Source of the DNA: a virus
Reading direction: 5' to 3' (one strand)
DNA length: 64,000 bases
Virus record (IMG/VR): IMGVR_UViG_3300050014_000792
Coordinates: 1-64,000 of that record
The notes under the pieces are model-generated. The model searched no databases. It saw nothing but the letters and a program-made list of their open reading frames with translations, and was not told the DNA's origin. Numbering within the stretch: the stretch's first letter is position 1; each line of letters begins with the position of its first letter. Shown one piece after another: positions 12,690 to 57,851 of the stretch. The position numbers and the translations under genes were made by a program.

Positions 12690-14573
12690 ATGTCATACGC
12701 ATCCACAACTTTAAAAAACTTCTTAAATGAGGATATGGGCACTCTTAAGCAGATTGCTGATATGCCTAAGGAATGGAAGACTAAACTTATCCAGAATTAT
12801 CGTGCTGGTGAAAATTCTGAAGTAAACACTATGGATGCTTCTGAAACTCCTGCAAAGTTAACTAAATTCTTAAAAGATGAAGGTAAGATTGCTACTATTC
12901 TAAAAGTGGATGGCAAAACCAAATACTATATAGAGAAAAAATCTCCACAAAAGTTTGAGGTAATGGATGCGGATGAAGAGCATTCTATAAGAGCTCCTCG
13001 TAGAAAAAGGGAACAAGAAGCAAGAGATGCTGAATGGAAAAGACAAGAAGATGAAAGAGCAGCTCGATATGCTGCTGCGAATCCAAAACCTACAACGGAA
13101 TCTATTTCAAATCCTCTAAAATCTAACGAAGTATTAAACGAGCGAAGAAGAGGGGAATGGCATGATCCTGCTTTAATTGGTGAATATAATACTGCGGGTC
13201 TTTTAGATTTCATTAAGAAATTAGTTGATGCCGGTAAAAAGGTTGAGCTTCTAAACATTTTTAAAGATGTTGCAAGAGAAAAGAAAGGTCAAATTAGAAG
13301 AAATGCTCCTGTTGACCCGCTTGAAAGAAAAGAAGGAAACAATTATGACAGAGGGGTTTCTCCAGCAGCTAGGAAAAGATTCGAAAAATTTGAAGAAAAG
13401 AAAAGAGCTCAAATCGATAAAAAAGTTGATATTGAAATAGAGAAATTCAAAGAACAGATTCTTGCCAACTTTGATAAGGCAATGGAAGATATTCTTCAGC
13501 AAATGAGAAAGGGATATGGCTCTATCGATGCCAAAAGTATTGGAGAAAAACTTTTAGGAGGGGTAGATTTAAATGGTCTTAAACGTTTCCAAGCCGGTTA
13601 TGAAATTATAAGCAATCAATATCGTGATATTAAGCCTAAAGAAATTCTTGATCAATTAAAGAAATTAGGCTTTGGTCCTAAAAAGACTAATGAAGCTTAT
13701 GAAAGCAATTCAGCCTGGAATCCAGAGAATGAAGATAAAGTTGCTGATTGGTTAAATGAAATAGTAGAAAAAATGGAAAACCTCTACAAAGTAGATGGTC
13801 TTCTTGCTCGTTATGCTATGATCGTTGCCGCTCCTAAACTAGATCAGTTCTGGAGAGCAGGTATGAGTCCTATTTCTATTGCCAATGAATTTGCGAATAA
13901 TAAAGCACTTCTTACAAAAGCTGCCGAAGAAATGGGCAAAGAGGAAAGTGCTAATACCGAATATGAAGAAATGGTAAATCGTAATGCGCCTCAGATGAGA
14001 CACAGAGAAGAAGAACCAGAAATTACAGTTAAGGACTATTCCAAAATGGATAAGTTCGAAATACAGAAAGAGATTGATCAAGCTCTCGATGCTGGAGATA
14101 TAGAAAAGTTGAAAAGGCTACAGAAATATCTTCCGGAATCGTTAAAAGAACCGGTAGCCGAATTACTCAGGGAGGCTAAGATGGAAACAAATGAAAGCGT
14201 ATTAATGCACCAGAATGTTGCATTATTAGATAATACAGATGAAAAAACCGACGAAGAAGATATTGATGAAGGAGTTAGCCCAGAAATAGTTCGTTTTTTC
14301 GAAGGAGTTTATTCTGAATTAGTTACGGAATTTGAAATGGATGAAGAGGAAGCTGGCGATTTTATTACTATTGTTCATGATGAATTAAAAGCTGCTTTTG
14401 AGGATGGATTAATGCCAGAAGAAGCTGCTGCATTGGTTTATACTAATGAAGAAGCTCTAGAAAAACTAGCTAAATTAGATCCTGCTTATCAATCTGACTT
14501 TGGAGATGAAAATGAACCAACAGGTACTTCAGCTCAACACATGCAAGAACCCGGTAAAGAATACGAATACTAA
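12690..14573 (+). CDS. Large helical, charged protein, probable head-interior or structural protein
   Basis: This 627-residue protein is rich in Lys, Glu and Ala, with long predicted helices: a coiled-coil-like RRKREQEARDAEWKRQEDER near residue 100 and FEKFEEKKRAQIDKKVDIEI near 235. It has an acidic C-terminal quarter. No enzymatic motif is visible. It is the last large gene of the acidic cluster, and a tiny frame overlaps its stop by TAATG. I cannot assign a family. The size, charge and cluster suggest a late structural or internal head protein. Confidence 0.6.
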   Translation: MSYASTTLKNFLNEDMGTLKQIADMPKEWKTKLIQNYRAGENSEVNTMDASETPAKLTKFLKDEGKIATILKVDGKTKYYIEKKSPQKFEVMDADEEHSIRAPRRKREQEARDAEWKRQEDERAARYAAANPKPTTESISNPLKSNEVLNERRRGEWHDPALIGEYNTAGLLDFIKKLVDAGKKVELLNIFKDVAREKKGQIRRNAPVDPLERKEGNNYDRGVSPAARKRFEKFEEKKRAQIDKKVDIEIEKFKEQILANFDKAMEDILQQMRKGYGSIDAKSIGEKLLGGVDLNGLKRFQAGYEIISNQYRDIKPKEILDQLKKLGFGPKKTNEAYESNSAWNPENEDKVADWLNEIVEKMENLYKVDGLLARYAMIVAAPKLDQFWRAGMSPISIANEFANNKALLTKAAEEMGKEESANTEYEEMVNRNAPQMRHREEEPEITVKDYSKMDKFEIQKEIDQALDAGDIEKLKRLQKYLPESLKEPVAELLREAKMETNESVLMHQNVALLDNTDEKTDEEDIDEGVSPEIVRFFEGVYSELVTEFEMDEEEAGDFITIVHDELKAAFEDGLMPEEAAALVYTNEEALEKLAKLDPAYQSDFGDENEPTGTSAQHMQEPGKEYEY

Positions 14574-14692
14574 TGATAACAACTTATTTAATAACGGTTC
14601 CTATTGGATGCCAATATAATTTTCCAGGTATGGAAGTTTGCAGCGGGGGATTTCTAGTCTATACAAAACCACCAACGTTATTATTCCAATAA
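14573..14692 (+). CDS. Tiny protein (39 aa) coupled to the preceding gene
   Basis: The start overlaps the previous stop as TAATG and the frame runs 39 residues (MITTYLITVPIGCQYNF...). The terminator begins 6 bases after the stop, so the frame fits the transcript exactly. It could still be chance. Confidence 0.4.
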   Translation: MITTYLITVPIGCQYNFPGMEVCSGGFLVYTKPPTLLFQ

Positions 14693-14740: not shown

Positions 14741-16471
14741 ATGAAACAATTCAAATTAGAACAATACTTCTCAACTTTTAAAGATACATTCCTTCCCAAA
14801 AAATTCGTTTGGAGAAAAGGACAAAAAGAAGCCATAGCTGGAATAGTTGATGCATATTTTGAAAAGAAATATGATACAGTTATTCTCGATGCTCCCGTCG
14901 GCAGTGGCAAATCCATCATAGCTATGTGTACCGCTTGGATTCTAAACCAAGAAGGAAAGAAAGGATATATTCTCGCTTCAGATATTGCATTACAAGAACA
15001 ATACGAAAAAGACTTTGCTATCTTTAATTTGAATTGGGGTAGCATTAAAGGAGTGGATAACTATATTTGCGTTGATAATATGGAAAAAAATTCCCTAGGA
15101 ACTTGTAGAATAAGGAATTTAAATGCTCGAGCAATGGATTGTTATGAGTCCTGCCCATATTATTCCGCCAGAGATTTTGCTTCGGCATCACAAACAAGCC
15201 TGCTTAATTATGCGTATTGGCTAATTCACCAGAATTATGTCAATGCAAATATGGAGAAAGAAAAACAGCTATTTCTACCAAGAGATTTCACAATATGTGA
15301 CGAAGGTCATAAGATACTTGACATAATCCAAAACAACTATTCGCCAAGGTTTGACGAAAAGACATTGGAGAAAGTGGAGAAACTTACACATTTCTTTAGC
15401 ACTTATCATGTAAATAACCATACAAAAGACTTTTATAAGCTAAAAGAACTTATTGGTAAACTTTGGCAAGAAGAGGATCAGGATAAGTTATGGACTATGC
15501 TCTGCGAAATACAAATCATCCTTAAATTCTATTTAGGAAGTGCAGGAAGATTAAAAGATCGAGTTAAAGAAGATTATCCGCATGATAAACCACCAAAAGA
15601 ATGGCGTGAAGCTTTGTATATTTCGGATTGGCTTACAGACTTAGAATATAAGATTGATGATTATATTAAGATTATCCAGCAAACTTCTACTCGTAATCTT
15701 GTAAAAAATCCGCAAGGAGAAGATACTTTGATATTCAATTGTCTAAAGGAATCCTATTTAATGCACAAATATTTCCACAGATGGACAGGATTCCGAGTAT
15801 TAATGTCTGCTACATTCGCAGATCCTTCTGACTATCTACAAAGTATTTCTTTATCAGGTGCTAAGTATATCAAAGTTGAAAGTGCTTTTGACTTTACCAA
15901 ATCACCAATCTATTATTATAGTGGACATAAAATGTCTTATAATAAGGTTGCTGAAAATATGCCCTGGCTATGTTCAACAATAAATGAAATACTTGATAAA
16001 CATCCCGGAGAAAGCGGAATTATTCATTCTGCTTCCTATGATTTAACTATGAAGATATTTCAAGGATTGAATCGCCGCAACCAAGGTAGAATATTAAAGT
16101 ATAACGGAACTGAAGAGAAACGAAATGTTCTCGAAACTTTGAAGACTTCAAAAGGAATGGTTCTTATTGGCCCATCACTGCTTGAAGGCCTTGATCTGAA
16201 AGATGAATGGAGCAGGTTCCAAATATTTGCCAAGGTTCCATATTTGTCGCTTGGCGATCGTTTCGTAAAAGCAAAATTAGGCATAAATCCCGCGTGGTAC
16301 CAATGGAAATGTATTATAGGAATTTTACAGGGGACAGGAAGAAGCGTAAGAAGTGAAACCGATTATGCTACGACTTATATTTTGGATGCTTGTCTTTCTG
16401 ATTTAATTCATCATTCCCGAAAATCCTTTCCAAAAGAATTTCTTTCCCGAATTAAAATTATTGATAAATAG
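14741..16471 (+). CDS. DinG/XPD-type superfamily 2 DNA helicase
   Basis: The enzyme class unwinds DNA 5'-3', commonly in repair or recombination. Motif I APVGSGKS lies at about residue 50 and a DEAH-type box CDEGHK at about 186. Motif III MSATFA is near residue 355, and motif VI QGTGRSVRS near 533. Between motifs I and II four cysteines (about residues 110, 121, 133 and 137; CVDN, TCRI, DCYESC) are placed like the Fe-S cluster ligands of XPD and DinG. The 576-residue length fits a compact phage version. It sits just after a terminator. A non-DinG helicase of the same superfamily is the only serious alternative. Confidence 0.85.
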   Translation: MKQFKLEQYFSTFKDTFLPKKFVWRKGQKEAIAGIVDAYFEKKYDTVILDAPVGSGKSIIAMCTAWILNQEGKKGYILASDIALQEQYEKDFAIFNLNWGSIKGVDNYICVDNMEKNSLGTCRIRNLNARAMDCYESCPYYSARDFASASQTSLLNYAYWLIHQNYVNANMEKEKQLFLPRDFTICDEGHKILDIIQNNYSPRFDEKTLEKVEKLTHFFSTYHVNNHTKDFYKLKELIGKLWQEEDQDKLWTMLCEIQIILKFYLGSAGRLKDRVKEDYPHDKPPKEWREALYISDWLTDLEYKIDDYIKIIQQTSTRNLVKNPQGEDTLIFNCLKESYLMHKYFHRWTGFRVLMSATFADPSDYLQSISLSGAKYIKVESAFDFTKSPIYYYSGHKMSYNKVAENMPWLCSTINEILDKHPGESGIIHSASYDLTMKIFQGLNRRNQGRILKYNGTEEKRNVLETLKTSKGMVLIGPSLLEGLDLKDEWSRFQIFAKVPYLSLGDRFVKAKLGINPAWYQWKCIIGILQGTGRSVRSETDYATTYILDACLSDLIHHSRKSFPKEFLSRIKIIDK

Positions 16472-18598: not shown

Positions 18599-19585
18599 AT
18601 GGAAGCTAAAATTATATGCAAAGAATGCCATCAAGAAATCCCGTCATTAAAAGGATTAAACAATCATATTTTGCATAAGCATCAATTGTGCATAAAAGAT
18701 TATTATGATAAATGGATAAAAAAGGAGGGGGAAGATATTTGTAAAATATGTGGAGGGAAAACTGAATTTTATAGTTTTCAAAGGGGATATAGGGATACAT
18801 GTAAAAAAGAATGTGCTAATATTTTCAGATTTGATAGAATTAAAGAAGTCTTTAAAGAAAAATACGGGGATGAAATAATTATCAATAGAGAAAGTATAAT
18901 TACTAAAAGTGAAGCTATTAGATTAAAAAAATATGGACATAAGAATTCCGCTCATGGCTTAAATAGTATTAAAGTTGAAAAAACATGTAAAGAAAGATAT
19001 GGGGCTTCTAGCTATATGGGGTCAGTAAATCATAAAAAGGACATGGTTCATTTATGGAAGGGTTTCTCCAAAGAAGAAAAAAATGAAATATCAAATAAAA
19101 AAAGAAATACAAATACGGAAAGATATGGATTTCCATGCAGTTTGCAAAATGATACCGTGCATGAAAAAGCTATAAAAACAATGCTAAAAAGATATGATGT
19201 TAAATATAGCATGCAAAGTAAGGAATTATCAGAAAAAATCTTTAAAACTCAAATAAAAATAAAACCATTTAGAGATTCAAACATCTGGTATCAGGGTTCT
19301 TATGAACTTGATTTTTTAGAAAAATATTATGATAAATTTCCAGATATTCAAAGAGGGTTATCATTTAAATATAATTATTTGGGTAAAGAAAGAATCTATC
19401 TTTCTGATTTTTTTATACCTTCTCTAAATTTAATTATTGAAATAAAAAGTTCTTACTATTTAAAACGAGATAAAAATATGATTTTAGAAAAAGAAAAAGC
19501 TGTTTTAAATAATGGATATAAATATACTATAATTATAGATAAAAATTATAATATTCTGCAAAATGGCATTGTATCAGAAGTATAA
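18599..19585 (+). CDS. PD-(D/E)XK-type homing endonuclease
   Basis: This 328-residue protein has an N-terminal C2H2-like finger (ICKECHQ...H..H), a C-x2-C pair (ICKICGG), and a central run of short repeats around KYG/RYG (KEKYGDE, KKYGHKN, KERYGAS, TERYGFP, KRYDVK). These are typical DNA-contacting repeats of large phage homing endonucleases. The C-terminal nuclease core shows YQGSYELDF, then SDFFIPSLNLIIEIKSSYY, fitting the D...E-x-K catalytic pattern. Its last 23 bases overlap the start of the gp15-like gene. It is a close relative of the partial gene at 1-630. Confidence 0.8.
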   Translation: MEAKIICKECHQEIPSLKGLNNHILHKHQLCIKDYYDKWIKKEGEDICKICGGKTEFYSFQRGYRDTCKKECANIFRFDRIKEVFKEKYGDEIIINRESIITKSEAIRLKKYGHKNSAHGLNSIKVEKTCKERYGASSYMGSVNHKKDMVHLWKGFSKEEKNEISNKKRNTNTERYGFPCSLQNDTVHEKAIKTMLKRYDVKYSMQSKELSEKIFKTQIKIKPFRDSNIWYQGSYELDFLEKYYDKFPDIQRGLSFKYNYLGKERIYLSDFFIPSLNLIIEIKSSYYLKRDKNMILEKEKAVLNNGYKYTIIIDKNYNILQNGIVSEV

Positions 19586-25378: not shown

Positions 25379-25726
25379 ATGGCCATCCACGTTAAAAATA
25401 AAGATCTTAGAGAAGAACTAATCAAATCTAAAGCACAGGATAAACTCACCAAAGAATGTTTGGACATGTTTATTTTAATGGCTAATAAGTTCTCAACGAA
25501 GTTTAAATACGTCTATAATGAGGACCGAGAGGATTGTATTTCGTTTGCAATAATGGACTGTTTCCAATATTGGAGAGGATATAACCCAGAAAAGAGTGCA
25601 AATGCATTCGCTTATGTTACCCAGATAATAAAGAATGGCTTTGCAAAAGGATGGCGTAAACTTTATGGTAACATGCCCAAGAGTAAAAAGATTTCAATTA
25701 GTCAGAATAAAATATATTCAATCTAA
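25379..25726 (+). CDS. 55: Late-transcription sigma factor, T4 gp55-like
   Basis: This 115-residue protein aligns by pattern with T4 gp55. MFILMANKFSTKFKYVYNED corresponds to the gp55 helix around LIAEGLSKRFNF. REDCISFAIMDCFQYWRGYN followed by ANAFAYVTQIIKNGFAKGWR corresponds to the region-2-like GIEASIKGLHNF and [20 protein letters not shown]. gp55 directs host RNA polymerase to the T4 late promoter TATAAATA, a sequence found before many genes in this window. The protein is shorter than the 185 residues of T4 gp55. The next gene starts on the A of its TAA stop. Confidence 0.75.
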   Translation: MAIHVKNKDLREELIKSKAQDKLTKECLDMFILMANKFSTKFKYVYNEDREDCISFAIMDCFQYWRGYNPEKSANAFAYVTQIIKNGFAKGWRKLYGNMPKSKKISISQNKIYSI

Positions 25727-26728: not shown

Positions 26729-27310
26729 ATGGAAAAAGAGTTCAATTATGTTTATTTGACGACAAATTTAATCAATGGCAAAAAATATGTCGGAGATCAC
26801 TCAACCAATAATTTGGATGATCATTATATTGGTAGTGGACGCCCTTATTTTAATAATGCTAAAAAGAAATACGGAAAGGAGAATTTCAAAAAGGAAATTC
26901 TAAAGTTTTTTCCATCTAAACAATCTTCCTTTGATGCTCAAGAAAAATATATTAAAGAGCATAATACATTAAAACCAAATGGATATAATTTAAGTCCAAA
27001 AGGAGGGGTTGGAGTTGTTGAATGTTTTTCTGAAGAAAGTAAAGAAAAAATTAAAAATAGTTTATTGGGTATAAAAAGATCCGAAATAACTAAACAAAAA
27101 ATGAGTAAGCCCAAACATACCGCTGAAAGTAAAAAAGCAATTTGGGACACAAGGAGAAATAATGGAAATGGGGATTTTTCGGAAGAGCATAAAAAGAATA
27201 TGCAGGAAGCCGCCAAAAATAGGCCTCCGATGTCTGAACAAACTAAGCGAAATATGAGCAAATCTAGAATGGGAAATAATAATCGAACAAAAAATTTAGT
27301 AAAATGTTAG
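26729..27310 (+). CDS. GIY-YIG homing endonuclease with NUMOD3 repeats
   Basis: The 193-residue nuclease has signature YVYLTTN...KKYVGD, DHYIGSG, the segment YFNNAKKKYGKENFKKEILK, the catalytic-region EKYIKEH and KPNGYNLSPKGG. The C-terminal half has NUMOD3-like helices (SEESKEKIKNSLLGIKRSE). It starts directly after the previous stop, with no late-type motif, and its end overlaps the next gene by 7 bases. It is a close paralogue of the minus-strand gene at 43314-43964, sharing the EKYI and TLKPNGYNL segments. Confidence 0.88.
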   Translation: MEKEFNYVYLTTNLINGKKYVGDHSTNNLDDHYIGSGRPYFNNAKKKYGKENFKKEILKFFPSKQSSFDAQEKYIKEHNTLKPNGYNLSPKGGVGVVECFSEESKEKIKNSLLGIKRSEITKQKMSKPKHTAESKKAIWDTRRNNGNGDFSEEHKKNMQEAAKNRPPMSEQTKRNMSKSRMGNNNRTKNLVKC

Positions 27311-28057: not shown

Positions 28058-28855
28058 ATGGGAAATATTCACTATGTTTATTTAACAACTAATATCGTCA
28101 ATGGAAAACAATATGTCGGAGCTCATACTACCAATAATATAGACGATGGATATTTAGGCAGTGGTAATTTAATTAGAAGATCCATAAAGAAATATGGTAA
28201 GGAATCTTTTAAAAAGGAAATATTACAGAAATGCGAAACCTTACATGAAGCTAGAAAACTCGAAGAACCCAATATAATAAAATATAAAACACTTATTCCG
28301 ATTGGGTATAACATTCATCCAAATGGGGGAAATGGAGAAATACCAGGAAGAAGGACAAAAGCATCCATCGATAAATTTCGAGAATCATTCAGTAAAGTTC
28401 CTCGAACAGCAGAATGGAAAACGAACATTAGTAAAGGATTAAGTGGAAGGAAATTTACAAATGAGCATTGTCAAAATATAAGCAAATCTCATATTGGGCA
28501 GAATTGTTGGTGTAAAGGGAAAACCGGAATATTTTCTAAAGAGACCATTGAAAAAATGAGTAAACGTGCTAGTGAAAGAGTTGGAGAAGAAAATCCAATG
28601 TTTCAAAAAACTGTTTTTGAGATATGGGAAGAAAAATTTGGTAAAGAAGAAGCTGATAAAAAACTTTCATTAATGAAAGATAAAATGAGCAAAACTCGAG
28701 TCGGCAAAAAAGCTAGCGAAACCACATGCAAAAATATCAGCAAAGGCAGAATGGGTCAAATATATGACAAAAAAGAATGTCCCCATTGTCATAAAATGAT
28801 GGATCCTGGGAATTATAATAGATGGCATGGGGATAAATGTAAAGAGAATATATAA
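28058..28855 (+). CDS. GIY-YIG homing endonuclease with NUMOD3 repeats and zinc knuckle
   Basis: This 265-residue protein carries YVYLTTN...KQYVGA, GYLGSG, SIKKYGKESFKKEILQ, the catalytic-region EEPNIIKYKT and IGYNIHPNGGNG. NUMOD3-like helices follow in the middle, ending TCKNISKGRMG. The end is ECPHCHKMMDPGNYNRWHGD then KC, a C-x2-C...H-x3-C zinc knuckle shared with the genes at 43314 and 57851. The TAA stop lies inside the next gene's late-type motif, so the reading frame ends in the portal promoter region. Confidence 0.88.
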   Translation: MGNIHYVYLTTNIVNGKQYVGAHTTNNIDDGYLGSGNLIRRSIKKYGKESFKKEILQKCETLHEARKLEEPNIIKYKTLIPIGYNIHPNGGNGEIPGRRTKASIDKFRESFSKVPRTAEWKTNISKGLSGRKFTNEHCQNISKSHIGQNCWCKGKTGIFSKETIEKMSKRASERVGEENPMFQKTVFEIWEEKFGKEEADKKLSLMKDKMSKTRVGKKASETTCKNISKGRMGQIYDKKECPHCHKMMDPGNYNRWHGDKCKENI

Positions 28856-28871: not shown

Positions 28872-30698
28872 ATGGCTGGATTCACAATGAAAAATGTGGA
28901 CGGCAGACGAATGGGTCTTGTCGGACAACTTCAGAGAAATATACGCAATTTGAGTTCCCTGGGCATGAAATGGGACGAAAAAGTTATAAAACAGTCTAAG
29001 TCCGTTGGTATAGCTGAAGCTCAGTTAGATTCCATGTATGGACTCTACTACCAGGGAAACTATGCTGGCACTGACTATGGTCAAAAAGAATTTATCGCAT
29101 TCTATGATAAGGAATATCCTACACGTAGAGACTTCCTTCGTAAGTTTGCAATGAATGGTGAAATAGAAAACGTTATTGAAATTATTGCAGACGAAACGAT
29201 CATCTATGACGATCAGAACTATTTTGCTTACCCAGCAACAAAGAACCTTAAATCTGTCTTAAAACAAGATAAAGCAAAAGAAATTGTAGAAGATTTAAAT
29301 GAATGCTTCAGAAAAATCTATTTTGCTTTCAAATTCAATCAGGGTCACGATGGCTGGCATTATTTAAAGAAATTCCTTATTGATGGATTCCTCGCATTTG
29401 AAATCATTTATGATGGTGAAGGCGAAGAGAATGCTAAGAACATTATTGCTCTAAAGGAACTTGACCCAATATCACTTGAACCAGAAGTTCGTATTAATAA
29501 TGATGGCGAGGAATATCGTGTTTGGATTCAGTATCGTGGTGATGCAAGAAAACAAAGAGAATTAGTTGACTCTAACCTTATTTACATATCCTGGGCACGA
29601 GGTAACTTTATTGGAAGACTTTCATACGTTGAGAGATTAGTTCGTTCATTTAACATGATGAGAACACTTGAAAACTCACGTATTATTTGGAACGTTTGGA
29701 ACGCTCAGATGAGGGTTAAAATCTTAGTTCCGATTGGATCCCAATCAGATGCTAAAGCTCGTACAAGACTATCAGAATTACGTGGTATGTACAAGGAAGA
29801 GTTAAACATCTCGGATGAATCCGGAGAAGTAACCTACAATGGTTCCGCTCAGTTCAATTTCGCCAAGACATTCGTTATTCCTACCCGTGATGGAGCTCAG
29901 ACAGAAATCGATGGATTCCAACCACAAGGATACGACTTATCTAATACAGAATCTCTTAAATATTTCTGGCAGAGATTCATTATCGAAACCAAAGTACCTA
30001 GTTCCCGATTTAATAATTCCGCTGAATCTTCAGAAGGCGGTAATGGCGGAAGTTGGGGTGATGGCGGTGAAGGTGTTGCTAGAGAGGAAATGAGATTTTC
30101 TAATTTCATTATTAGAATTCGTTCTACTTTCCAGGAAATCCTTCTTAAACCTCTTTGGATTCAATTCCTTTTAAAACATCCAGAATTTAAAGAAGACAGA
30201 GTACTTCAGGGATCTGTTGGTCTTGATTTCATTGAAGAAAACTTATTCAAGAAAATGAAAGAAAGATCTCTTGCAGAAAAGGGATCCGCTACAATTACAA
30301 GTATTGCTGGAATTAAAGAACCTACTGTTAATCCAGATGGAACTCCAGGAGAAAAGAACTATTTTGACCCTAAATTTTTGGTTGAGAAGTTCATGGAATT
30401 TACAGAAGCAGATATTAAGCTCAACGCTAAATATAAGAAAGAAAGAGAAGAAGAAGTTCGTAAACTTGCTCAAGCTTATGCACGTCTCAACGCAGCAACA
30501 GGTCAACAGCCTGGTGGTGAAGGTGGCGGTGGAGAACTTGGCGGCGGAGGTGGTTTCGGCGGTGAAGGTGGCGGCGGCTTAGGCGGCGGTGGAGAACTTG
30601 GTGGGGGACTTGGAGACTTAGGCGGTGGTGGAGAACTTGGTGGTGAAGGCGGAGCAGAAGAACCAGCAGCAGGGGGTGAAGAAGAATTAGGAGTATAA
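28872..30698 (+). CDS. 20: Portal protein, T4 gp20-like
   Basis: This 608-residue protein forms the dodecameric DNA entry gate at one capsid vertex. T4-type portal features are visible. IENVIEIIADETIIYDDQNY is near residue 96, and HYLKKFLIDGFLAFEIIYDG (about 162-181) is the strand-helix region. ELDPISLEPEVRI follows near residue 200, then SNLIYISWARGN and LSYVERLVRSFNMMRTLENS. The segment IIETKVPSSRFN is near residue 373. The last 70 residues are a Gly-rich low-complexity tail (GGGGELGGGG-type repeats) that T4 gp20 lacks. It has a late-type promoter at 28846 and is preceded by an inserted endonuclease gene. Confidence 0.93.
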   Translation: MAGFTMKNVDGRRMGLVGQLQRNIRNLSSLGMKWDEKVIKQSKSVGIAEAQLDSMYGLYYQGNYAGTDYGQKEFIAFYDKEYPTRRDFLRKFAMNGEIENVIEIIADETIIYDDQNYFAYPATKNLKSVLKQDKAKEIVEDLNECFRKIYFAFKFNQGHDGWHYLKKFLIDGFLAFEIIYDGEGEENAKNIIALKELDPISLEPEVRINNDGEEYRVWIQYRGDARKQRELVDSNLIYISWARGNFIGRLSYVERLVRSFNMMRTLENSRIIWNVWNAQMRVKILVPIGSQSDAKARTRLSELRGMYKEELNISDESGEVTYNGSAQFNFAKTFVIPTRDGAQTEIDGFQPQGYDLSNTESLKYFWQRFIIETKVPSSRFNNSAESSEGGNGGSWGDGGEGVAREEMRFSNFIIRIRSTFQEILLKPLWIQFLLKHPEFKEDRVLQGSVGLDFIEENLFKKMKERSLAEKGSATITSIAGIKEPTVNPDGTPGEKNYFDPKFLVEKFMEFTEADIKLNAKYKKEREEEVRKLAQAYARLNAATGQQPGGEGGGGELGGGGGFGGEGGGGLGGGGELGGGLGDLGGGGELGGEGGAEEPAAGGEEELGV

Positions 30699-32744: not shown

Positions 32745-33503
32745 ATGTATGTCTGCGGAGAATGTAAAGAAGAATTTGGAACCTTTCAAGCGAAGGCAAA
32801 TCATGTAAGATGGCAGCATAGAGATAATTCAAAATTAGGTGAAAAACTTTCAAAAGAAGCCTTAAAAACGAACGAAAAAAGATTCGGAAAATATATAGAA
32901 GAGGATATTAAATGTGAAGCAGAATTATGCAATAATATAATTCACATCAAATATCGAAAAGGAGGTATTAAAAGGAGATTTTGTTGTAAATCCTGTGCTA
33001 ATACAAAAATAATTCATACAGAAGAAGGAAAAATTCGAAGCAGCAATGCTATAAAAGAAGCCTGGAAAAATGGAATATATTATACCGAAACTTATCAACA
33101 AAAACAGAGTACAAATATAAAATTTTCTTCATCAAAAGAAAGGGAAATTGTTAAATATTTTAAAGCTCATTATCCTCAATATAATTGGAAATCAGGAGGG
33201 AATTTAAGATATAAGGAAACGGGGATAGGAAGGGATTTATATTCGGATATTTTAAAAATTTGTTTTGAATATGATGGTATTTGGCATTTTAAGGATATAC
33301 ATCATCAATTAGAAACAAAACGATTCAAAGATAAATTGCTTGAAGAGTGGTGTATCGAGAATGGATACAGATTAATTAGAATAGATGAAAGGGAATTTAT
33401 TGATTTTAATCAAATTGAAAAATTATTTTTTGAAGATACAAGTCCTATTATTAAAATAGGAAAAAGATATTGGGAGTGCTCGAAAGAGCTAATTATAGAG
33501 TAG
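32745..33503 (+). CDS. VSR/EDxHD-like homing endonuclease inserted at the tmRNA gene
   Basis: This 252-residue protein has an N-terminal C2H2 finger (YVCGECKEEF...NHVRWQH) and a second Cys cluster (KCEAELCNN, RFCCKSCAN). The C-terminal nuclease domain contains SDILKICFEYDGIWHFKDIH, LEEWCIENGYRLIRID and E. The E-x-D-G-x2-H-F motif with a downstream Asp/Glu resembles very-short-patch-repair (VSR)-type and EDxHD homing nucleases. Its TAG stop touches the tmRNA acceptor half, and its last 8 codons encode a GCTC-GAAA-GAGC hairpin. A broken tmRNA end lies upstream. The location points to insertion into the tmRNA gene; target specificity is inferred. Confidence 0.8.
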   Translation: MYVCGECKEEFGTFQAKANHVRWQHRDNSKLGEKLSKEALKTNEKRFGKYIEEDIKCEAELCNNIIHIKYRKGGIKRRFCCKSCANTKIIHTEEGKIRSSNAIKEAWKNGIYYTETYQQKQSTNIKFSSSKEREIVKYFKAHYPQYNWKSGGNLRYKETGIGRDLYSDILKICFEYDGIWHFKDIHHQLETKRFKDKLLEEWCIENGYRLIRIDEREFIDFNQIEKLFFEDTSPIIKIGKRYWECSKELIIE

Positions 33504-33567
33504 ATATGCAACACCCGCGTTCGATTCGCGGCAGCTCCACAATCGATTGCCGATTATCTTAAACTAA

Positions 33568-33605
33568 GTGCGGTGAGTTTAGACAAACTTATTTTCGATC
33601 CGCAC
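33568..33605 (+). other. Intervening-segment hairpin between the tmRNA halves
   Basis: Nested stems GTGCGG (33568-33573) with CCGCAC (33600-33605) and AGTTT with AAACT (33576-33580, 33585-33589) fold the spacer, bringing the two mature ends together. In known permuted tmRNAs this segment is removed during maturation. GGGGCTG begins 5 bases after the stem. Confidence 0.6.
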
Positions 33606-33675
33606 AAATCGGGGCTGACCTGGCTTTGACTGCATATTGAGGGAGATAACGATTATTCCAGTAACGCAAGTAAAC

Positions 33676-33711
33676 GGCGAAACTGTTAACGAAATGAGAA
33701 TGGCAGCTTAA
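33676..33711 (+). other. tmRNA tag reading frame
   Basis: From the GGC codon at 33676 the frame reads GETVNEMRMAA and stops at TAA (33709-33711). The start is inferred: known Bacteroidota tags often begin with Gly-Glu. Two codons (Val-Asn) upstream are also in frame. The end MAA replaces the usual LAA recognised by ClpXP. Confidence 0.6.
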
Positions 33712-33735
33712 GAAGCACCATTTTTCACGAGACTT

Positions 33736-33762
33736 ACCCACAGCGAAAGTGTGGGTTTTTTT
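33736..33762 (+). terminator. Rho-independent terminator of the tmRNA precursor
   Basis: The stem ACCCACA/TGTGGGT has a GCGAAAG loop and six T follow. It begins right after the tag-coding half, so the transcript ends there. This confirms that no 3' acceptor half lies downstream. Confidence 0.88.
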
Positions 33763-33779
33763 GTGGGATAAATAAAGAA

Positions 33780-35018
33780 ATGGATAAGAAGATTACTTAT
33801 ACAAATGAAGTTGTCGATTCATACTCAGGCCAAACTAATTGTGAAGCGGGGGTTTATGCTAATGATGAGATTGTCGGCCTAGTTCAATATGTTTTATTTG
33901 AAGATGAACTCTCCATAAGTCATATCTTTGTTCGTCCTGAATTTAGAAGATTGGGATATGGATCCAAACTAATGAAGTATATCAAAGAACAAAATCCTGA
34001 TTATCACTATGTTCCTTCCCTTAAAACAGATCTTGGAGCAGCATTTAAACATAAAGATGTTTCCTTAACGGAAAAACAGCATTTCGAACGAGAGGGAACC
34101 CCACTAGATAAATTGGGTATTGGGGAAAATAGATTTAAACCCCTTGTAATTGATTTTTTAAAAGTTATTGAGAATTCAAACTTACTAATAGATCCCGGAT
34201 TTATGAATGTTGGACAAGATATTATCACAAGTGATAGACTTTTTGATGGATTCCATGAATTAGTTACAACTTGGCCTAAATATAAACCTCTGGTAAATTC
34301 GATGGGGCTAGAAATTCAAAATGATGGGGTTCCAGATTTAGATGAAACTATTTTTGTTTCTTTAAAAGAAAAACCTGTTTCTAAATCTTTATCATCGGAT
34401 CAAGTTATTATGAAACAACTTAGGAAAATAACAGATCCTATAGATAATAAAATTAATCCTGTTCCAATGGTTCCCTTTCGTTCGGTTGTAAAAGAGGTTA
34501 CCCGAAATAATTTTCATATTTCAACTCAGGCAGATTATAAAGAAATTCATCTCACAAGTCATTTTGAAAACATACATCATCTATGGAGCACTTTATCTGA
34601 CAAAGGAACTAATTTTAAGAGCCGCGGCGGAAGCCAATACTGGATTTCAGATAAAGCTATTTACAGATTAGCTGATCATTGGGGCGGTGTTGCTTCGTGT
34701 TTCTGGACTATAGATGGAGAAGGGGATCCTAATTTTCAAACTAAAAAGGAGGGTCCTTTTAGAATTGGATGGGCATTCATGAAAGACTTTAGCCCTTATA
34801 CAGTTAATTTTAAAAGAGATAATTTAATTGATCCAAAATGGTGTGATAAAATTCGTAAACCTTTAAAGGAAGCTTTAGAGGATTTGGAAGAAATTAAAAA
34901 GGAAATTTGGGAGGAAGAAGGGGTTTCTGGTGAAGTAAAAGGATTCATCGGAAAACATATTTACAGATATAAAAATATCGTGAATGATATTGAAAGAAAT
35001 GATAGAAGAATAAAATGA
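33780..35018 (+). CDS. GNAT acetyltransferase fused to an FEREGTP-header domain
   Basis: Residues 1-80 form a GNAT-type N-acetyltransferase: IVGLVQYVLFEDELSISHIF, VRPEFRR, then LGYGSKLMKYIKEQ, which is the acetyl-CoA pyrophosphate loop (R-x-x-G-x-G/S). At about residue 94 the shared header appears inside the chain (LTEKQHFEREGTPLDKLGIG), followed by about 300 residues of unknown fold. The arrangement looks like a fusion of an acetyltransferase to a complete header-family protein. Its substrate is unknown. It lies just after the tmRNA terminator and overlaps the next header gene by ATGA. Confidence 0.65.
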   Translation: MDKKITYTNEVVDSYSGQTNCEAGVYANDEIVGLVQYVLFEDELSISHIFVRPEFRRLGYGSKLMKYIKEQNPDYHYVPSLKTDLGAAFKHKDVSLTEKQHFEREGTPLDKLGIGENRFKPLVIDFLKVIENSNLLIDPGFMNVGQDIITSDRLFDGFHELVTTWPKYKPLVNSMGLEIQNDGVPDLDETIFVSLKEKPVSKSLSSDQVIMKQLRKITDPIDNKINPVPMVPFRSVVKEVTRNNFHISTQADYKEIHLTSHFENIHHLWSTLSDKGTNFKSRGGSQYWISDKAIYRLADHWGGVASCFWTIDGEGDPNFQTKKEGPFRIGWAFMKDFSPYTVNFKRDNLIDPKWCDKIRKPLKEALEDLEEIKKEIWEEEGVSGEVKGFIGKHIYRYKNIVNDIERNDRRIK

Positions 35019-35322: not shown

Positions 35323-35982
35323 ATGAAAGCTGGATCTTTTAACTTTAATGACTATATCGAAAGACTTACCGAAGCTGCAGAAGCAAAAGAACAAGAAACT
35401 TCTGAAAAAGGTGCTAAGGAAAAAGGCGGTAAAGGTGCTCCTGTAACAAAAGCTGCAGGTGGACCAGGCGAAGGTCTTATTATACCAGAAGAGAATAAAA
35501 AAGTATTCGGATGGCTCAAGAAAGAGTACGTCAAAGGTAAGACTGAAGTAAAAGTCGAAATGAAAATGGGGGGATCCAAATTCACCCCAGGATATGATCT
35601 TCAGACCGATCTTAAATCTGTTAAAGATTTCAAACCAGGTATGTTTGGCGATGTTAAAACCGGTGACAATGAAGGCAAAGGTTCTAAAGTAGAACCCGGA
35701 ACTGATGGTGGCTCTGTTGCTCAAGGATCTGCAGCAAAGCCAGGAAAAGGACCAATTGATACAGCACCAGATAAAAATGGCGAATCAGAAGCTCCAAAAA
35801 AGAAATTTGGAAAGAAAGAGCCTGCTGTTGTAACTGATGTTGAGGTTAATGAAAAAGGAGACGAAGACGAAGAAGAAGATAAGATGGAAGCAAAAGCTAA
35901 AAAAGGATTTAAACCTGCTGCCGGAAAAGGAAATGACTTCAAAAAGGAAGACAAATTCAAAAAAAACTTAAAGAGTCTGTAA
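35323..35982 (+). CDS. Lys/Glu/Gly-rich disordered protein, possible internal head protein
   Basis: This 219-residue protein starts with an amphipathic MKAGSFNFNDYIERLTEAAE. It continues with mostly disordered Lys-, Gly- and Glu-rich sequence and an acidic patch (KGDEDEEEDKMEAKAKK), and ends basic (KKEDKFKKNLKSL). The N-terminus is similar in kind to the T4 capsid-targeting sequence MKTYQEFI...EA, and the basic body would suit DNA-bound internal proteins. This is inference from composition. It has its own late-type promoter. Confidence 0.6.
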   Translation: MKAGSFNFNDYIERLTEAAEAKEQETSEKGAKEKGGKGAPVTKAAGGPGEGLIIPEENKKVFGWLKKEYVKGKTEVKVEMKMGGSKFTPGYDLQTDLKSVKDFKPGMFGDVKTGDNEGKGSKVEPGTDGGSVAQGSAAKPGKGPIDTAPDKNGESEAPKKKFGKKEPAVVTDVEVNEKGDEDEEEDKMEAKAKKGFKPAAGKGNDFKKEDKFKKNLKSL

Positions 35983-36290: not shown

Positions 36291-36632
36291 ATGGATAAAA
36301 TGATCAAGGACGACGCATTAGCAAATAGACTCAATGCGGTTAAGGAGGGGGCGGCAATTCCTACACCACCCATTGAGGAGGTATATTTTAAAAAAGAGGA
36401 ACCAAAGATTGACGAAACTTTAACTCAAGAAATTGAGTATCAACCTCGTCCGGGCATGGTTTTTGTTGGTAGTCTATTGAATACAATCGAAACTCTAGGA
36501 ATGTCTATGCTATTCGGCGTAGGCTTAAAAGCTATATTTTCTACACAATGGAAATTCTGGGGAATCCTCGGAGTTGGCGTTATGGTATATGAAGTTCTTA
36601 ATCTTATTAAGAACTCAAAACTTTTCAATTGA
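36291..36632 (+). CDS. Small membrane protein
   Basis: This 113-residue protein has a polar, Pro- and Glu-containing N-terminal half. Two hydrophobic segments follow (VGSLLNTIETLGMSMLFGVG and FWGILGVGVMVYEVLNLI). It is immediately followed by a hairpin and a homing endonuclease gene. Confidence 0.55.
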   Translation: MDKMIKDDALANRLNAVKEGAAIPTPPIEEVYFKKEEPKIDETLTQEIEYQPRPGMVFVGSLLNTIETLGMSMLFGVGLKAIFSTQWKFWGILGVGVMVYEVLNLIKNSKLFN

Positions 36633-36655
36633 TCCCTGTTTTTGAAGGAACCGAC

Positions 36656-36680
36656 ATATCCGGAATTATTTTCCGGATAT
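36656..36680 (+). other. Perfect hairpin before the endonuclease gene
   Basis: The 10-bp stem ATATCCGGAA/TTCCGGATAT has a TTATT loop and begins 24 bases after the previous stop. No T run follows. Its 3' arm runs into GGATATATAG, the start of a late-type motif. It may end the upstream message or shield the endonuclease start. Confidence 0.5.
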
Positions 36681-36688
36681 ATAGTTAT

Positions 36689-37582
36689 ATGATATTATCT
36701 ACTATTAAATTGAACAAAACGGGATTTCCAATTATTCGTCAAAAAGTAATTATTAATTGTGATCAATGTCATTTAGATCATATTTTTCCTAGATATTATA
36801 CTTATGCAGAAGGTAAAGAAAAATATGGTATAGATTTATGTTTGTCCTGCCGACGTCAAAAACAATACATTAATGCGGGGAAATCATCCATAAAAAGAAC
36901 TCAAGGAAAAACATATGAAGAAATATTTGGGAATGAGAAGGGAAATAAAATACGAAATAATATATCCGTTTCTTTATCTGGTTCGGACAACCCTATGTAT
37001 GGAAGAAACAATCAATGCTCTGGAATAATTCAATATGCTATTGATGGGAAAGGTTTATCTTTTGATAAAAGATATGGAAAAGAAAAATCCCAAAAAATAA
37101 AAGACAAAATATCCATTCATTCTTCAGGAGAAAATAATCCAATGTATGGAAAACCATCACCAATAGGTTCGGGTAATGGATGGTCCGGATGGTATAAAGG
37201 ATGGTATTTTCGAAGTTTACACGAACTTTCATATATGATAAATGCTATTGAAAGATTTGGGTTTAAATGGGAAAGTGCTGAAAAAAAGGAACTAAAAATT
37301 CCATATATTGGATTTAATAAAGAAAAGCGTACTTATGTTGCGGATTTTATTATAAATGAAAAATATCTAGTTGAAATAAAACCAAAAAAATTACACAAAT
37401 CCAAAATCGTTCAATTAAAAAAAGAAGCTGCTATGGAATTTTGTAAGAAAAATGGATTCATTTATAAATTAACCTATTCCTCAAAACTTTTGTCATATTT
37501 AGACATAAAAAGATTAGTTGATAATAAATGTCTTCAATTCACAGAAAGATATAAAGAAAAATTCAATATATGGGTAAATTAA
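36689..37582 (+). CDS. PD-(D/E)XK-type homing endonuclease with NUMOD3 motifs
   Basis: This 297-residue protein takes ATG 36689 as its start; the longer TTG-started frame would overlap the previous stop and read through the hairpin. An N-terminal Cys cluster INCDQCHLDH...CLSC is followed by two NUMOD3-type repeats (SGSDNPMYGRNN and SGENNPMYGKPS). The nuclease core is YKGWYFRSLHELSYMI, then YVADFIINEKYLVEIKPKK, giving D...E-x-K. Its end overlaps thymidylate kinase by 13 bases, so it is inserted directly before that gene. Confidence 0.82.
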   Translation: MILSTIKLNKTGFPIIRQKVIINCDQCHLDHIFPRYYTYAEGKEKYGIDLCLSCRRQKQYINAGKSSIKRTQGKTYEEIFGNEKGNKIRNNISVSLSGSDNPMYGRNNQCSGIIQYAIDGKGLSFDKRYGKEKSQKIKDKISIHSSGENNPMYGKPSPIGSGNGWSGWYKGWYFRSLHELSYMINAIERFGFKWESAEKKELKIPYIGFNKEKRTYVADFIINEKYLVEIKPKKLHKSKIVQLKKEAAMEFCKKNGFIYKLTYSSKLLSYLDIKRLVDNKCLQFTERYKEKFNIWVN

Positions 37583-39488: not shown

Positions 39489-40184
39489 ATGTCTTTAAGA
39501 ACTCCTCGATTTTACTATGTTTATTTAATAACCAATTTGGTTTTGAATAAACAATATGTAGGTAGTCGAATATGTTATAAAGAAGACCCCAATACAGATG
39601 GGTATATGGGGTCTTCTAAATATCTTGATCTAGATTATGAAATATATGGTATTGAAAATTTCAAAAAACAGATACTTCAAGATAATTATAAAAATGTAGA
39701 GGATCTGTTAGATGGGGAAACCCATTACATTTTAAAATACAATACCCTATCCCCAAATGGATATAATCGATTTCTGCCAAATAAAAACAGAGGATTTCAT
39801 ACAGGCGGATGTCATTATACCCGATCAGAAAAAACAAAAGAAAAAATAGCTTATTCAAAAAAAGGAGAAAAAAATCCTAGCTGGGGAAAGCACCCATCGG
39901 AAAAAACAAGGCAGCAAATGAGCAATGCTCACATGGGTGAAAAAAATCATCGATGGGGAAAAGAATTAACAGAGGAACATAAGTTAGCATTATTTAATTC
40001 TCGTAATGGGGTTTCTTTATCAGAAGAAACCAAAGAATTAATGAGAAAACCAAAAACTGAAGAACATAAAAAACATATGAGAAAGCCGAAGTCAAAGGAG
40101 GCTAAAACTCATATGAGTGAATCCAAAAGGGGAACAACCCCATGGAATAAAGGTAAAAAATTTATTAATGGACACTATACTTAA
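39489..40184 (+). CDS. GIY-YIG homing endonuclease with NUMOD3 repeats
   Basis: This 231-residue protein carries YYVYLITN...KQYVGSR, GYMGSS, IYGIENFKKQILQ, the catalytic-region GETHYILKYNT and PNGYNRFL. Four or more NUMOD3-like repeats follow (SEKTRQQMSNAHMGEKNHRW, TEEHKLALFNSRNG). It is a paralogue of the gene at 57851-58486, with the same YMGSS and YGIENF blocks. Its stop lies one base before the sigma-factor start, so it is inserted right against that gene. Confidence 0.88.
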   Translation: MSLRTPRFYYVYLITNLVLNKQYVGSRICYKEDPNTDGYMGSSKYLDLDYEIYGIENFKKQILQDNYKNVEDLLDGETHYILKYNTLSPNGYNRFLPNKNRGFHTGGCHYTRSEKTKEKIAYSKKGEKNPSWGKHPSEKTRQQMSNAHMGEKNHRWGKELTEEHKLALFNSRNGVSLSEETKELMRKPKTEEHKKHMRKPKSKEAKTHMSESKRGTTPWNKGKKFINGHYT

Positions 40185-40185
40185 T

Positions 40186-40818
40186 ATGGACAAAGAAATC
40201 TCAATTCAAAATCTAGCAATAGATTTTTTGGAACAAAAAGACAACAAAACATTCACATATCTTATTAACAGGATAAAACCCGGACTAAACTCTTTCGTAT
40301 ATCGTTACGTAAAGGATTCTGATTTAGCAAAAGAAGTCGTTTCCAAGACTTTTATAGCTGTATGGGAGAAAATGGACCAGTATAACAGAGATTTTAACTT
40401 CTCAACTTGGGTTTATGCGATAGCAAAAAATGAAGCCCTCGGACAACTTAGATCTCGTTCAAAAACTGTCTCCAGAGAAAGACTTGATGAGAATCATTCA
40501 AAAGTTCTTAAATTTTATACTCCGATGGTTTCAATTAACCTCGAAGTAATAGGACCTAGCGGTGAAGAACTCAAGACTAACTTGTATAATAAAGTTATTG
40601 AAGCAATTGATAACTTAGAAGAACCTTATAGAACTGTTATCTTCGAAAGAGAGATTAACAATAAAAGACTGCAAGATATTGCAGCCGATCTTAACTGGAA
40701 CCTTAATACCGTTAAAACCAGATTAAGAAAAGCCAGAAAGGATGTCGCTGACACATTAAAAGAAAGGCATCCAGACCTTATCGAAGCATATTATGATGAA
40801 GAATCAGAGAATGACTAA
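40186..40818 (+). CDS. ECF-type (group 4) sigma-70 factor
   Basis: This is a 210-residue RNA polymerase sigma factor; ATG 40186 was chosen over an in-frame GTG inside the endonuclease gene. Region 2 shows FVYRYVKDSDLAKEVVSKTF, then VWEKMDQYNRDFNFSTWVYA and IAKNEALGQLRSRSK. Region 4 has NLEEPYRTVIFEREINNKRL and a helix-turn-helix QDIAADLNWNLNTVKTRLRK with AR. There is no region 1 or region 3, as in ECF factors. It probably redirects host RNA polymerase to a phage promoter class distinct from that of the gp55-like factor. No anti-sigma gene is visible. Confidence 0.88.
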   Translation: MDKEISIQNLAIDFLEQKDNKTFTYLINRIKPGLNSFVYRYVKDSDLAKEVVSKTFIAVWEKMDQYNRDFNFSTWVYAIAKNEALGQLRSRSKTVSRERLDENHSKVLKFYTPMVSINLEVIGPSGEELKTNLYNKVIEAIDNLEEPYRTVIFEREINNKRLQDIAADLNWNLNTVKTRLRKARKDVADTLKERHPDLIEAYYDEESEND

Positions 40819-55535: not shown

Positions 55536-57851
55536 TTATACGATTAATGTATCAAATTCATCATAAATGGATGGATCCATATTTACAATTGCCTGGAAAA
55601 ATAATTGTAAAGTCCCCGTAATATTAGGTTGCGGGGAAGTAGCTCCGGTGGGTTTTGTAAGAGTAACATAAGCATTATTTGGTAGATTATCTATTGTACT
55701 CTGAATATCTACAGAATTTTGTTTAGTAATTTTTCCTGTTTGATCTTTTGTTGAAACAGTATACTCTAAAAATTGTGCTTGGTGTTTAAAATAAGATCCA
55801 CTGCCAGAAGCTGGGTTAGGAATGCTGTCGTCCATGTGGGTATAAATACCTGCAGAACTTAAAGTCTGATCCAATTGAATTGCAGCTTCTTCAGAAGCAG
55901 CTTCAGTAAGAATATTAGCTACCTGATCCGTTCCTGAAAGATTTGCTGGGAAAGTAACAGTAACTGGCTGAGACCAATCGGATTTAAGCGGGTTCAAAGG
56001 CCATCCTGCTTCAGAGATAGAACGGATTTTAATTTGAACGTTTTCTCCCTTTTGAATTGGAACATCTAGCTGGTTAATATTTACTACATCACCATTAGCA
56101 ATTGTCTCCGGTTTCCAGATGTATTTGTTTGTACTAGTGTCAAATGTTTTCTGAAGAACTGGTCCAAGATTAAGTGTCCAATCTGAAAATACTCCTGAAA
56201 TATTCTGACCAGTTGAAGGATCAGCATAAGTAATAGTATTTAGAGGATTTCCTGTATTATCCAGTCTTAAATATCTATAAGCAGTTTCAAATTGTATAAT
56301 TTGCTGAGTCTGCGGACTATTTCCTAACTCGATTGGTTTTGGGGAAGGAATATCAAAGAATCCGCGAATTCTATATTTAGGGCTAACTGCAACAGAATTA
56401 TTTTCATAAGCTATAGTTGCTAAAGATCTTACTAATGACTGATATTGAACCGTATTATTAGAAAGAGATATAATGTTGCTATTGATCTTTGATTGTAAGT
56501 CAGCACGTTCGGAAGAAGAGGTTAATTGAACCAATTCTGATTTCTGGTTGCTGATTGTATTCTTTAAACTATTGATAATGGTTTTTAAAGATTCAATCTG
56601 AGCTTGTGTCTGCTTAACTGATGCAACATCTATCGCTGCATTAAGTTGAGTATTGATCTGAGTTACATTGAAGTTTGTAGCTGCAAAAACAGGAGCGTCT
56701 GGATTAACTCCAAAGAATGCTGGAATAAATCCTTCTCTAGCTTGTCCTTCAAGCTGTCTTCCAAAGTCCTGAACAAATGAATTATAGTATTGCTGGAATG
56801 TAACTGTGCTGTCAACCAGGACTAAATCATTTGTATAGAAGTTTACCGAATTTCCCCAATCATCGGCGATAATATTAAAGTCATCATTAACTCCTTTGAA
56901 GAAAATAATATCGCATTCATCGTATCCAACTGGAATATCAACTAGCTTAGTTGCAAATGGAGTTGAGTAAATATTGAAAGAACCATTGATAGAAGGCTTT
57001 CCAAAACCAACTGTGGCTGTAAGCTGAACCCTTTTTTCTGTAACATCAATAGAATTAACTACATATAAACTATCAGCGTAACGAAGCTGATCGTTAATTT
57101 TTAATTGGATATTCTTTACAACGGTACCATCTGAGGTTAAACCATAGTTAAGTGTATCAAGATAAAACCATTCAACGTTATTTATAACTTGTCTATTTGT
57201 AATTAAGAAGCTACCGGTATACTGTGTTGGATTTAGAGGAAGATTTAAGACTTCATCATCAATAAAATAGGTTTTTGCATTTACGTTTAAGAAATCTATT
57301 GTTTCCTGATAATCGCGAGTAACCCCAAGAAAATTATCTTTAAACCATTGGGTAGCTTCGGCATCCGGGTTATCAAAAAGAACCCTTCTAACTGTAACTC
57401 TATCTGACCTATCATCGATTAATCCTTTAAGATCAAATTCAACAATAAGTTCGGGAAACATCATATTCTCAAAAAACCAGTTTGTACGAGTTTGGAATGT
57501 TGTTGGAGCAGCCAATGTTGTAATAGCTACAGGAGATTTTGCTACGGGTATTGTAGTTACCTGGCGATAAGTTCCATCCTTTAATAAAACGACTCCATTA
57601 CCAGATACAAAAGTGTCCACCGTATTAACTACTCTATTCATTTGAGTGAGTAGAGAATTGAAAGATGGAATATGATAGGTAAAAGTGGATGCGTCGCCAG
57701 TTATCGGGTCGGTTCCCACCACTGATATAACTACAAAATCCGATTGCGTAGTCATTGAATTATTCATCTGAACCATGGATTGTAAAGCAACGTTTACATT
57801 TTGGGTAAGCGTTTTTACAGTTTCGGTGAATGAATTTACGTTTTGAGCCAT
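55536..57851 (-). CDS. Large virion structural protein with coiled coil and FN3-like domain
   Basis: This is a 771-residue protein. The N-terminus is helical (NSFTETVKTLTQNVNVALQS). A coiled coil occupies about residues 410-475 (KQTQAQIESLKTIINSLKNT and onward). A fibronectin-type-III-like stretch (about 600-640: VQIKIRSISEAGWPLNPLKS then DWSQPVTVTFP) comes later. No catalytic motif is seen. Its ATG overlaps the stop of the upstream GIY-YIG gene by one base. The composition suggests a tail or baseplate protein that forms elongated oligomers. Confidence 0.6.
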   Translation of the reverse strand: MAQNVNSFTETVKTLTQNVNVALQSMVQMNNSMTTQSDFVVISVVGTDPITGDASTFTYHIPSFNSLLTQMNRVVNTVDTFVSGNGVVLLKDGTYRQVTTIPVAKSPVAITTLAAPTTFQTRTNWFFENMMFPELIVEFDLKGLIDDRSDRVTVRRVLFDNPDAEATQWFKDNFLGVTRDYQETIDFLNVNAKTYFIDDEVLNLPLNPTQYTGSFLITNRQVINNVEWFYLDTLNYGLTSDGTVVKNIQLKINDQLRYADSLYVVNSIDVTEKRVQLTATVGFGKPSINGSFNIYSTPFATKLVDIPVGYDECDIIFFKGVNDDFNIIADDWGNSVNFYTNDLVLVDSTVTFQQYYNSFVQDFGRQLEGQAREGFIPAFFGVNPDAPVFAATNFNVTQINTQLNAAIDVASVKQTQAQIESLKTIINSLKNTISNQKSELVQLTSSSERADLQSKINSNIISLSNNTVQYQSLVRSLATIAYENNSVAVSPKYRIRGFFDIPSPKPIELGNSPQTQQIIQFETAYRYLRLDNTGNPLNTITYADPSTGQNISGVFSDWTLNLGPVLQKTFDTSTNKYIWKPETIANGDVVNINQLDVPIQKGENVQIKIRSISEAGWPLNPLKSDWSQPVTVTFPANLSGTDQVANILTEAASEEAAIQLDQTLSSAGIYTHMDDSIPNPASGSGSYFKHQAQFLEYTVSTKDQTGKITKQNSVDIQSTIDNLPNNAYVTLTKPTGATSPQPNITGTLQLFFQAIVNMDPSIYDEFDTLIV

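Follow-up and report, generated by a model that had tools for sequence, protein, structure and literature searches.

The literature assigns permuted tmRNA to three principal lineages of bacteria (PMC11915505). The locus described here, in a virus that resembles phages of Bacteroidota, raises two questions: whether it encodes a genuine circularly permuted tmRNA and, if so, where the permutation arose. The stretch of DNA that was analyzed (64,000 nucleotides, hereafter the window) comes from an IMG/VR virus record of 74,273 bp.

The phage and its tmRNA locus

The portal protein encoded in the window is nearest to those of the huge phage LR756500 and of the Prevotella Lak phages (39%–40%). The helicase (14741–16471) is nearest to that of LR756500 (42%), followed by Chryseobacterium MA9V-2, Sphingomonas PAU, Tenacibaculum PTm1, and Lak, and the ORF at 55536–57851 has matches in 31 phage records only, of which nearly all are uncultured or have Bacteroidota hosts (15 Prevotella, 6 uncultured, 5 Tenacibaculum, 2 Chryseobacterium, 2 Sphingomonas PAU, and 1 Flavobacterium). 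Judged by these similarities, the phage is a relative of the Lak/“Mahaphage” jumbo phages, whose hosts are Bacteroidota. Because all three genes resemble those of Bacteroidota phages, a Bacteroidota host is very likely, and the homologs in Lak, Tenacibaculum, Chryseobacterium, and Flavobacterium phages support the Bacteroidota assignment. A sigma-70-like gene with regions 2 and 4 (40117–40818) is also present in the window, as is a second ORF that matches region 2 weakly (25379–25726); both are conserved in relatives.

Across the 64 kb, the only gene called by ARAGORN is a permuted tmRNA (tmRNA*) with the tag GETVNEMRMAA. Likewise, RF04321 (tmRNA_permuted) was the only Rfam family over its cut-off in the window (33482–33711; E = 8.7e-7 in 64 kb), with a score of 49.8 bits that is barely above the gathering score of 47. 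The standard one-piece model, RF00023, reached 16.1 bits against a cut-off of 47, and no full-length colinear match above the cut-off was found. The permuted gene lies within 33478–33762 on the plus strand. The 3′ half of the tRNA is encoded upstream of the 5′ half, the two being separated by a short intervening sequence, and the 7-bp acceptor stem carries G3·U70. CAA follows the discriminator A33539, so that CCA is not encoded. The features of the locus are as follows.

28872–30698, +: portal gene, on which synteny and phylogeny were based (phrog_213, E = 1.9e-51)
32745–33503, +: ORF of a probable homing endonuclease, assigned to the HNH type by PHROG (phrog_559, E = 1.6e-7); a neighbor, not part of the RNA
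33478–33489, +: 5′ hairpin of the acceptor piece, GCTC-GAAA-GAGC; predicted near here in most relatives, with differing sequences (GCTCCTCGGAGC, GTCATGAACATGAC, CAAGTTGACAAG)
33504–33510, +: 3′ strand of the P2 helix, ATATGCA, 8 bp counting the preceding G (sequence; swap test)
33515–33531, +: T arm, CCGCG/TTCGATT/CGCGG (sequence; RF04321)
33532–33539, +: 3′ strand of the acceptor stem, CAGCTCC (33532–33538), and discriminator A (33539) (sequence)
33540–33610, +: intervening sequence, 71 nt (roughly 15–186 nt in relatives); its removal is presumed from known permuted tmRNAs
33611–33617, +: 5′ strand of the acceptor stem, GGGGCTG, which holds the alanine identity pair G3·U70
33618–33637, +: D-loop region, ACCTGGCTTTGAC, and 5′ strand of P2, TGCATAT (33631–33637) (ARAGORN, RF04321, alignment)
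33676–33711, +: tag reading frame GETVNEMRMAA*, with resume codon GGC and TAA stop (ARAGORN)
33696–33725, +: P5 hairpin, the loop of which contains the tag stop codon (predicted in 24 of 25 genomes)
33736–33762, +: terminator hairpin ACCCACA-GCGAAAG-TGTGGGT and T-run, the 3′ end of the gene (sequence)

An earlier note on this DNA had read the locus as a circularly permuted, phage-encoded tmRNA, and each of its elements (acceptor strands, T arm, P2, D-loop, tag, P5, and terminator) was found in place. The reading is borne out by the permuted call of ARAGORN, by the RF04321 score over the cut-off, and by the recurrence of the gene in 24 relatives. In addition to what had been noted, a 5′ hairpin of the acceptor piece (33478–33489) lies upstream of 33504; no such hairpin was predicted in the relative L006.

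The last 26 nt of the endonuclease ORF overlap the acceptor piece. A homolog occupies the same spot in L079 (12307–13044) and is broken in L014 (12790–13504), and all that L002 retains of the endonuclease is the 17-residue end that overlaps the acceptor piece (14541–14591, 94% identical). GIY-YIG-type genes lie directly downstream of the tmRNA in L009 and L002. Homing endonucleases seem to use the tmRNA locus as a landing site. Further endonuclease-like genes occur in the window at 18599–19585, 26729–27310, 28058–28855, 36629–37582, and 39489–40184; the types represented include GIY-YIG/SegE with NUMOD3, TnsA-like with NUMOD3, and a DUF7487 protein that matches a PHROG homing endonuclease. The phage genome is rich in mobile endonucleases.

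Conservation and compensatory change in relatives

Portal-based searches collected 20 and then 80 viral loci, together with 4 loci in metagenome-assembled genomes. Within the clade defined by at least 60% portal identity, a permuted tmRNA was found in 25 records, including the window. In every carrier, it sits downstream of the portal gene and is followed by the same conserved genes (homologs of 35323–35982 and 36291–36632, dTMP kinase, and the sigma factor). Four members of the clade (L076, L077, L082, and L018) have no permuted tmRNA within 2.9–10 kb downstream of the portal gene; the records of the other members that gave no call end too early. Near more distant portals (≤48% identity), the search for a permuted gene yielded nothing beyond a few isolated pattern matches that had no further support. 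A scan of the relatives with all of Rfam placed 13 of them above the RF04321 cut-off as well (47.9–81.1 bits), with L006 falling under it (37.4 bits). A search with positions 33400–33780 gave no DNA match to GenBank phages.

The tags of the clade vary, and the first residue is Gly or Asp in most. The tag frame is open and ends in Ala-Ala and a stop codon in 24 of 25 genomes (Val-Ala in L008), mostly as -MAA. The D-loop is mostly TTTGA and not TTCGA, and CCA is encoded in just one of the 25 genes, that of L072. In four relatives, the T loop departs from the usual TTCRA motif (GGCAGAA in L002, AGGCATA in L006, ATCATA in L010, and GGCGGAA in L079); the stems, the tag, and mostly P5 are retained.

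For the analysis of covariation, the 25 sequences were compared with the intervening sequence excised. Acceptor pair 5–68 is A-T in nine genomes, G-C in nine, C-G in six, and T-G in one, and at pairs 4, 6, and 7 both sides are altered in single genomes; the scan for relatives had demanded a 7-bp acceptor pairing, so it is the variety of pairs that counts and not their completeness. G3·U70 is present in all 25, U70 having been a condition when the relatives were collected. All 125 T-stem pairs over the 25 genomes are paired, compared with 81 expected when the strands are redealt among genomes, with a loop length of 6–8 nt picked for each sequence. P2 forms on average 7.0 bp with its own partner and 5.5 bp with partners swapped between genomes; none of 1000 swaps reached as high a value. 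In P5, 24 of the 25 genomes have the stop codon inside the loop, and changes of third codon bases are matched on the opposite strand (GCTT/AAGC, GCGT/ACGC, GCAT/ATGC, GCCT/AGGC). A conserved H-type pseudoknot at the 3′ end (ACTT/AAGT with the terminator stem) was also considered and is not supported (3.12 pairs with the own partner and 2.96 with swapped ones; 254 of 2000 swaps as high).

As the earlier note would lead one to expect, then, the permuted model is matched in the window and in relatives, compensatory changes occur in the acceptor, T, and P5 stems, and the surroundings of the gene are those of a phage. The permuted tmRNA gene is real and conserved.

Origin of the permutation

The tmRNAs of the nearest phages and of nearly all sampled Bacteroidota are of the one-piece type. 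Matches above the RF00023 cut-off were obtained for Lak-A2, Lak-B4, LR756500, LR756504, and the IMG/VR records L102, L105, L106, and L130; weak RF04321 matches in one-piece phages (16.5–33.8 bits) were not taken as permuted tmRNAs. The Lak and LR756500 tmRNAs differ from that of the window in not being permuted, although the phages are related by their portal proteins and the tags likewise end in RMAA. In Lak-A2 (142603–142997) and Lak-B4 (416686–417095), with tags DDEIDFRMAA and DDEIEFRMAA, the gene lies directly upstream of the portal gene; in the remaining one-piece phages it is far from it. Because a one-piece gene adjoins the portal gene only in Lak, and there upstream of it, the location of the tmRNA is no proof of permutation in place. 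Over its final 21 nt, the tag sequence of LR756500 is identical to that of the window, which as a sign of kinship is suggestive, not decisive, codon bias weakening it. In other huge phages (L157, L155, and L062), the tags of the one-piece tmRNAs are ∼24–35 residues long by eye, for example GKTNVWEAINSFGAPVSQVEFAVAA in L157; tmRNA tags mostly have ∼10 residues.

The view that Bacteroidota tmRNAs are one-piece held in 60 of 61 sampled genomes. These RNAs (RF00023) are like those of the clade in that many tags start with G-E/N, several end in MAA, and CCA is often absent from the gene; they are unlike them in not being permuted. A permuted match was found in one of 396 Bacteroidota genomes (L189), in a search with strict filters that scored few candidates per genome. 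It is surrounded by tRNA-like stretches and tiny ORFs and has a prophage-like look.

Permuted tmRNAs without an encoded CCA also occur outside the clade. Two are in the unrelated phage contigs L226 (1364–1656) and L230 (60–150), one is in a metagenome-assembled genome labeled Clostridia (L143, 773–1089), and one is at the L189 locus (1410–1807). The tags are GEQVEMAMAA in L226, GNNFTNNTQKVMYAAA in L143, and GKVIQMNNAPVRLAA in L189. L226 is a contig of 170.8 kb with neighboring genes nearest to Flavobacterium immuto phages, and L230 is 69 kb long; searching the cultured immuto, PTm1, MA9V-2, and PAU phages with RF04321 turned up no match. The presence of the permuted type in these four records indicates that it moves between replicons.

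The permuted tmRNAs of Alpha- and Betaproteobacteria and Cyanobacteria (RF04321; RF01849, RF01850, and RF01851) share with the window the order of the pieces, the tRNA-like domain, G3·U70, a tag, and an RF04321 score over the cut-off. A horizontal transfer of such a gene, directly or via another phage, followed by divergence would require no new permutation; the identical piece order would fit, as would the occurrence of permuted tmRNAs in other phages (PMC9004378). The lineage-specific models argue against it. The best score of the window was 29.9 bits with beta_tmRNA against a cut-off of 84, and clade relatives also remained under the cut-offs (49.6 bits for L012 and 44.1 for L078 with the beta model; 41.4 bits for L005 with the cyanobacterial model, cut-off 70), whereas proteobacterial-type phage tmRNAs used as positive controls (L023, L026, L039, and L178) reached 128–162 bits with beta_tmRNA. 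Further traits differ. In the proteobacterial-type phage tmRNAs that were examined, CCA is part of the gene, having been included in one of the search patterns used to find them and not in another, and nearly all tags start with AND. The clade has no AND tag, its tags being mostly G/D...MAA as opposed to AND...ALAA, it almost never encodes CCA, and its D-loop is mostly TTTGA rather than TTCGA. The coding piece of the window is, moreover, compact and has its own terminator.

The alignment was examined by AU tests with constrained tree searches under three treatments (∼68–88 aligned columns), superseding a quick tree of 85 columns that gave no resolution. The permuted tmRNAs used for comparison were for the most part proteobacterial-type and included no cyanobacterial sequence. 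Grouping of the clade with the proteobacterial type was rejected (p = 0.026, 0.028, and 0.039); its grouping with one-piece Lak-type and other Bacteroidota-type permuted tmRNAs was never rejected (p = 0.53, 0.47, and 0.46). Placement of all permuted tmRNAs in one clade was rejected only borderline (p = 0.044, 0.056, and 0.21), which leaves some room for transfer, and the clade on its own was also disfavored (p = 0.034, 0.052, and 0.19). Given the short alignment and the borderline values, the order of events is not resolved by the alignment, and AT-rich phage sequences could be drawn together by composition. The portal tree unites all 25 permuted members within a single clade (34 rows, aLRT 97), the sister of which includes Lak and L088; the Lak branch is long. 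On the whole, transfer from a proteobacterial or cyanobacterial source appears rather unlikely.

The permutation might instead have arisen in an unsampled bacterium of the Bacteroidota or a related group and been captured by phages, perhaps repeatedly. The similar genes in L226, L230, L143, and L189 would be expected under such a history; the scarcity of the permuted form in Bacteroidota, where the one match sits in a prophage-like stretch and 60 of 61 genomes are one-piece, makes it improbable, the count of one in 396 coming from a search that scored few candidates per genome.

The lineage models, the CCA, tag, and D-loop traits, and, with respect to the proteobacterial type, the AU tests set the clade apart from the known permuted lineages, and its lineage appears new. 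From these comparisons we infer an origin separate from the alphaproteobacterial, betaproteobacterial, and cyanobacterial permutations. The reading that we prefer, with a probability of roughly 0.6, is that the locus encodes the permuted tmRNA of a Lak-related jumbo phage, acting in ribosome rescue, and that a one-piece tmRNA of the Lak/Bacteroidota type probably gave rise to it by a separate permutation in a lineage of phages with Bacteroidota hosts. The more specific history, in which a fourth independent permutation took place inside a virus, Lak retaining the one-piece form and the clade carrying the permuted form by the same portal gene, with later spread to other Bacteroidota phages, has about an even chance of being correct.

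Proposed function and significance

By analogy to two-piece tmRNAs, which are made as one transcript, matured by tRNA-processing enzymes and CCA addition, held together by pairing, and active in trans-translation (PMC11915505, PMC9004378), the precursor would run from the acceptor piece through the intervening sequence and the coding piece to the terminator. Processing of the tRNA 3′ end would cut at 33539/33540 and RNase P at 33610/33611, as in known permuted tmRNAs; the host would add CCA, and the two pieces would stay joined by the 7-bp acceptor stem and P2. The RNA could then be charged with alanine via G3·U70. Its partner SmpB is probably that of the host, because none was found in seven records of the permuted clade, each possibly incomplete; SmpB is encoded in Lak and in most of the huge phages tested. 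Stalled ribosomes would be freed and GETVNEMRMAA added to the nascent product, and since the -MAA end resembles several Bacteroidota tags, host proteases should degrade what has been tagged. The likeliest benefit to the phage may be that ribosomes are kept circulating during infection. For Melnitz, the degradation of host proteins for amino acids has been proposed as an alternative benefit (PMC9004378).

From its conserved features, the RNA probably functions as a tmRNA, with cleavage into two pieces and tagging expected from the known systems. A tmRNA-like decoy that inhibits host trans-translation has a proposed precedent in the tRNA-domain-only RNA of mycobacteriophage DS6A (PMC4131195, PMC11915505); a gain to the phage from blocking host rescue is conceivable, and the odd T loops of L002, L006, and L079 might be read in the same way. 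All or nearly all of the 25 diverged copies, however, keep the open tag frame, the stop codon, P5, and the Ala-Ala end, which a decoy would not need. Because the tag, stop, and P5 are conserved, tagging is favored, and a decoy is very improbable. A non-functional remnant or a chance pattern, which the modest RF04321 score of the window (49.8 versus 47 bits) might suggest, has negligible likelihood in view of the synteny and compensatory changes across 25 genomes, the covariation ruling out chance or a pseudogene for the clade.

Carriage of a permuted tmRNA by a phage is not new per se, because it has already been published: of 133 unique tmRNA structures from phages, 53 received a two-piece call (PMC9004378). 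The two-piece tmRNAs of Melnitz, Mosig, and others described there have in common with the window a phage-borne, permuted ssrA. Those phages are mostly marine or aquatic, with tmRNA lineages common to Alpha- and Gammaproteobacteria and Cyanobacteria, whereas in the present case the tmRNA is one-piece both in the likely hosts and in the sister phages. A tmRNA has also been noted in huge phages (PMC7162821) and in the marine megaphage Mar_Mega_1 (PMC9723777); a word search of these two papers gave no mention of permuted tmRNA. In the main texts of the open-access literature, no permuted tmRNA was found to be reported in Lak-related or other Bacteroidota phages. What appears new is therefore the lineage of permuted tmRNA and not its carriage by a phage.

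If the preferred reading is true, this would be a fourth, phage-borne lineage and would show that rearrangement of tmRNA can arise in viruses. One-piece Lak and its permuted sister clade, both with the gene near the portal gene, would offer a tight comparison for asking how an RNA gene comes to be permuted, for what reason, and whether a phage needs ribosome rescue of its own.
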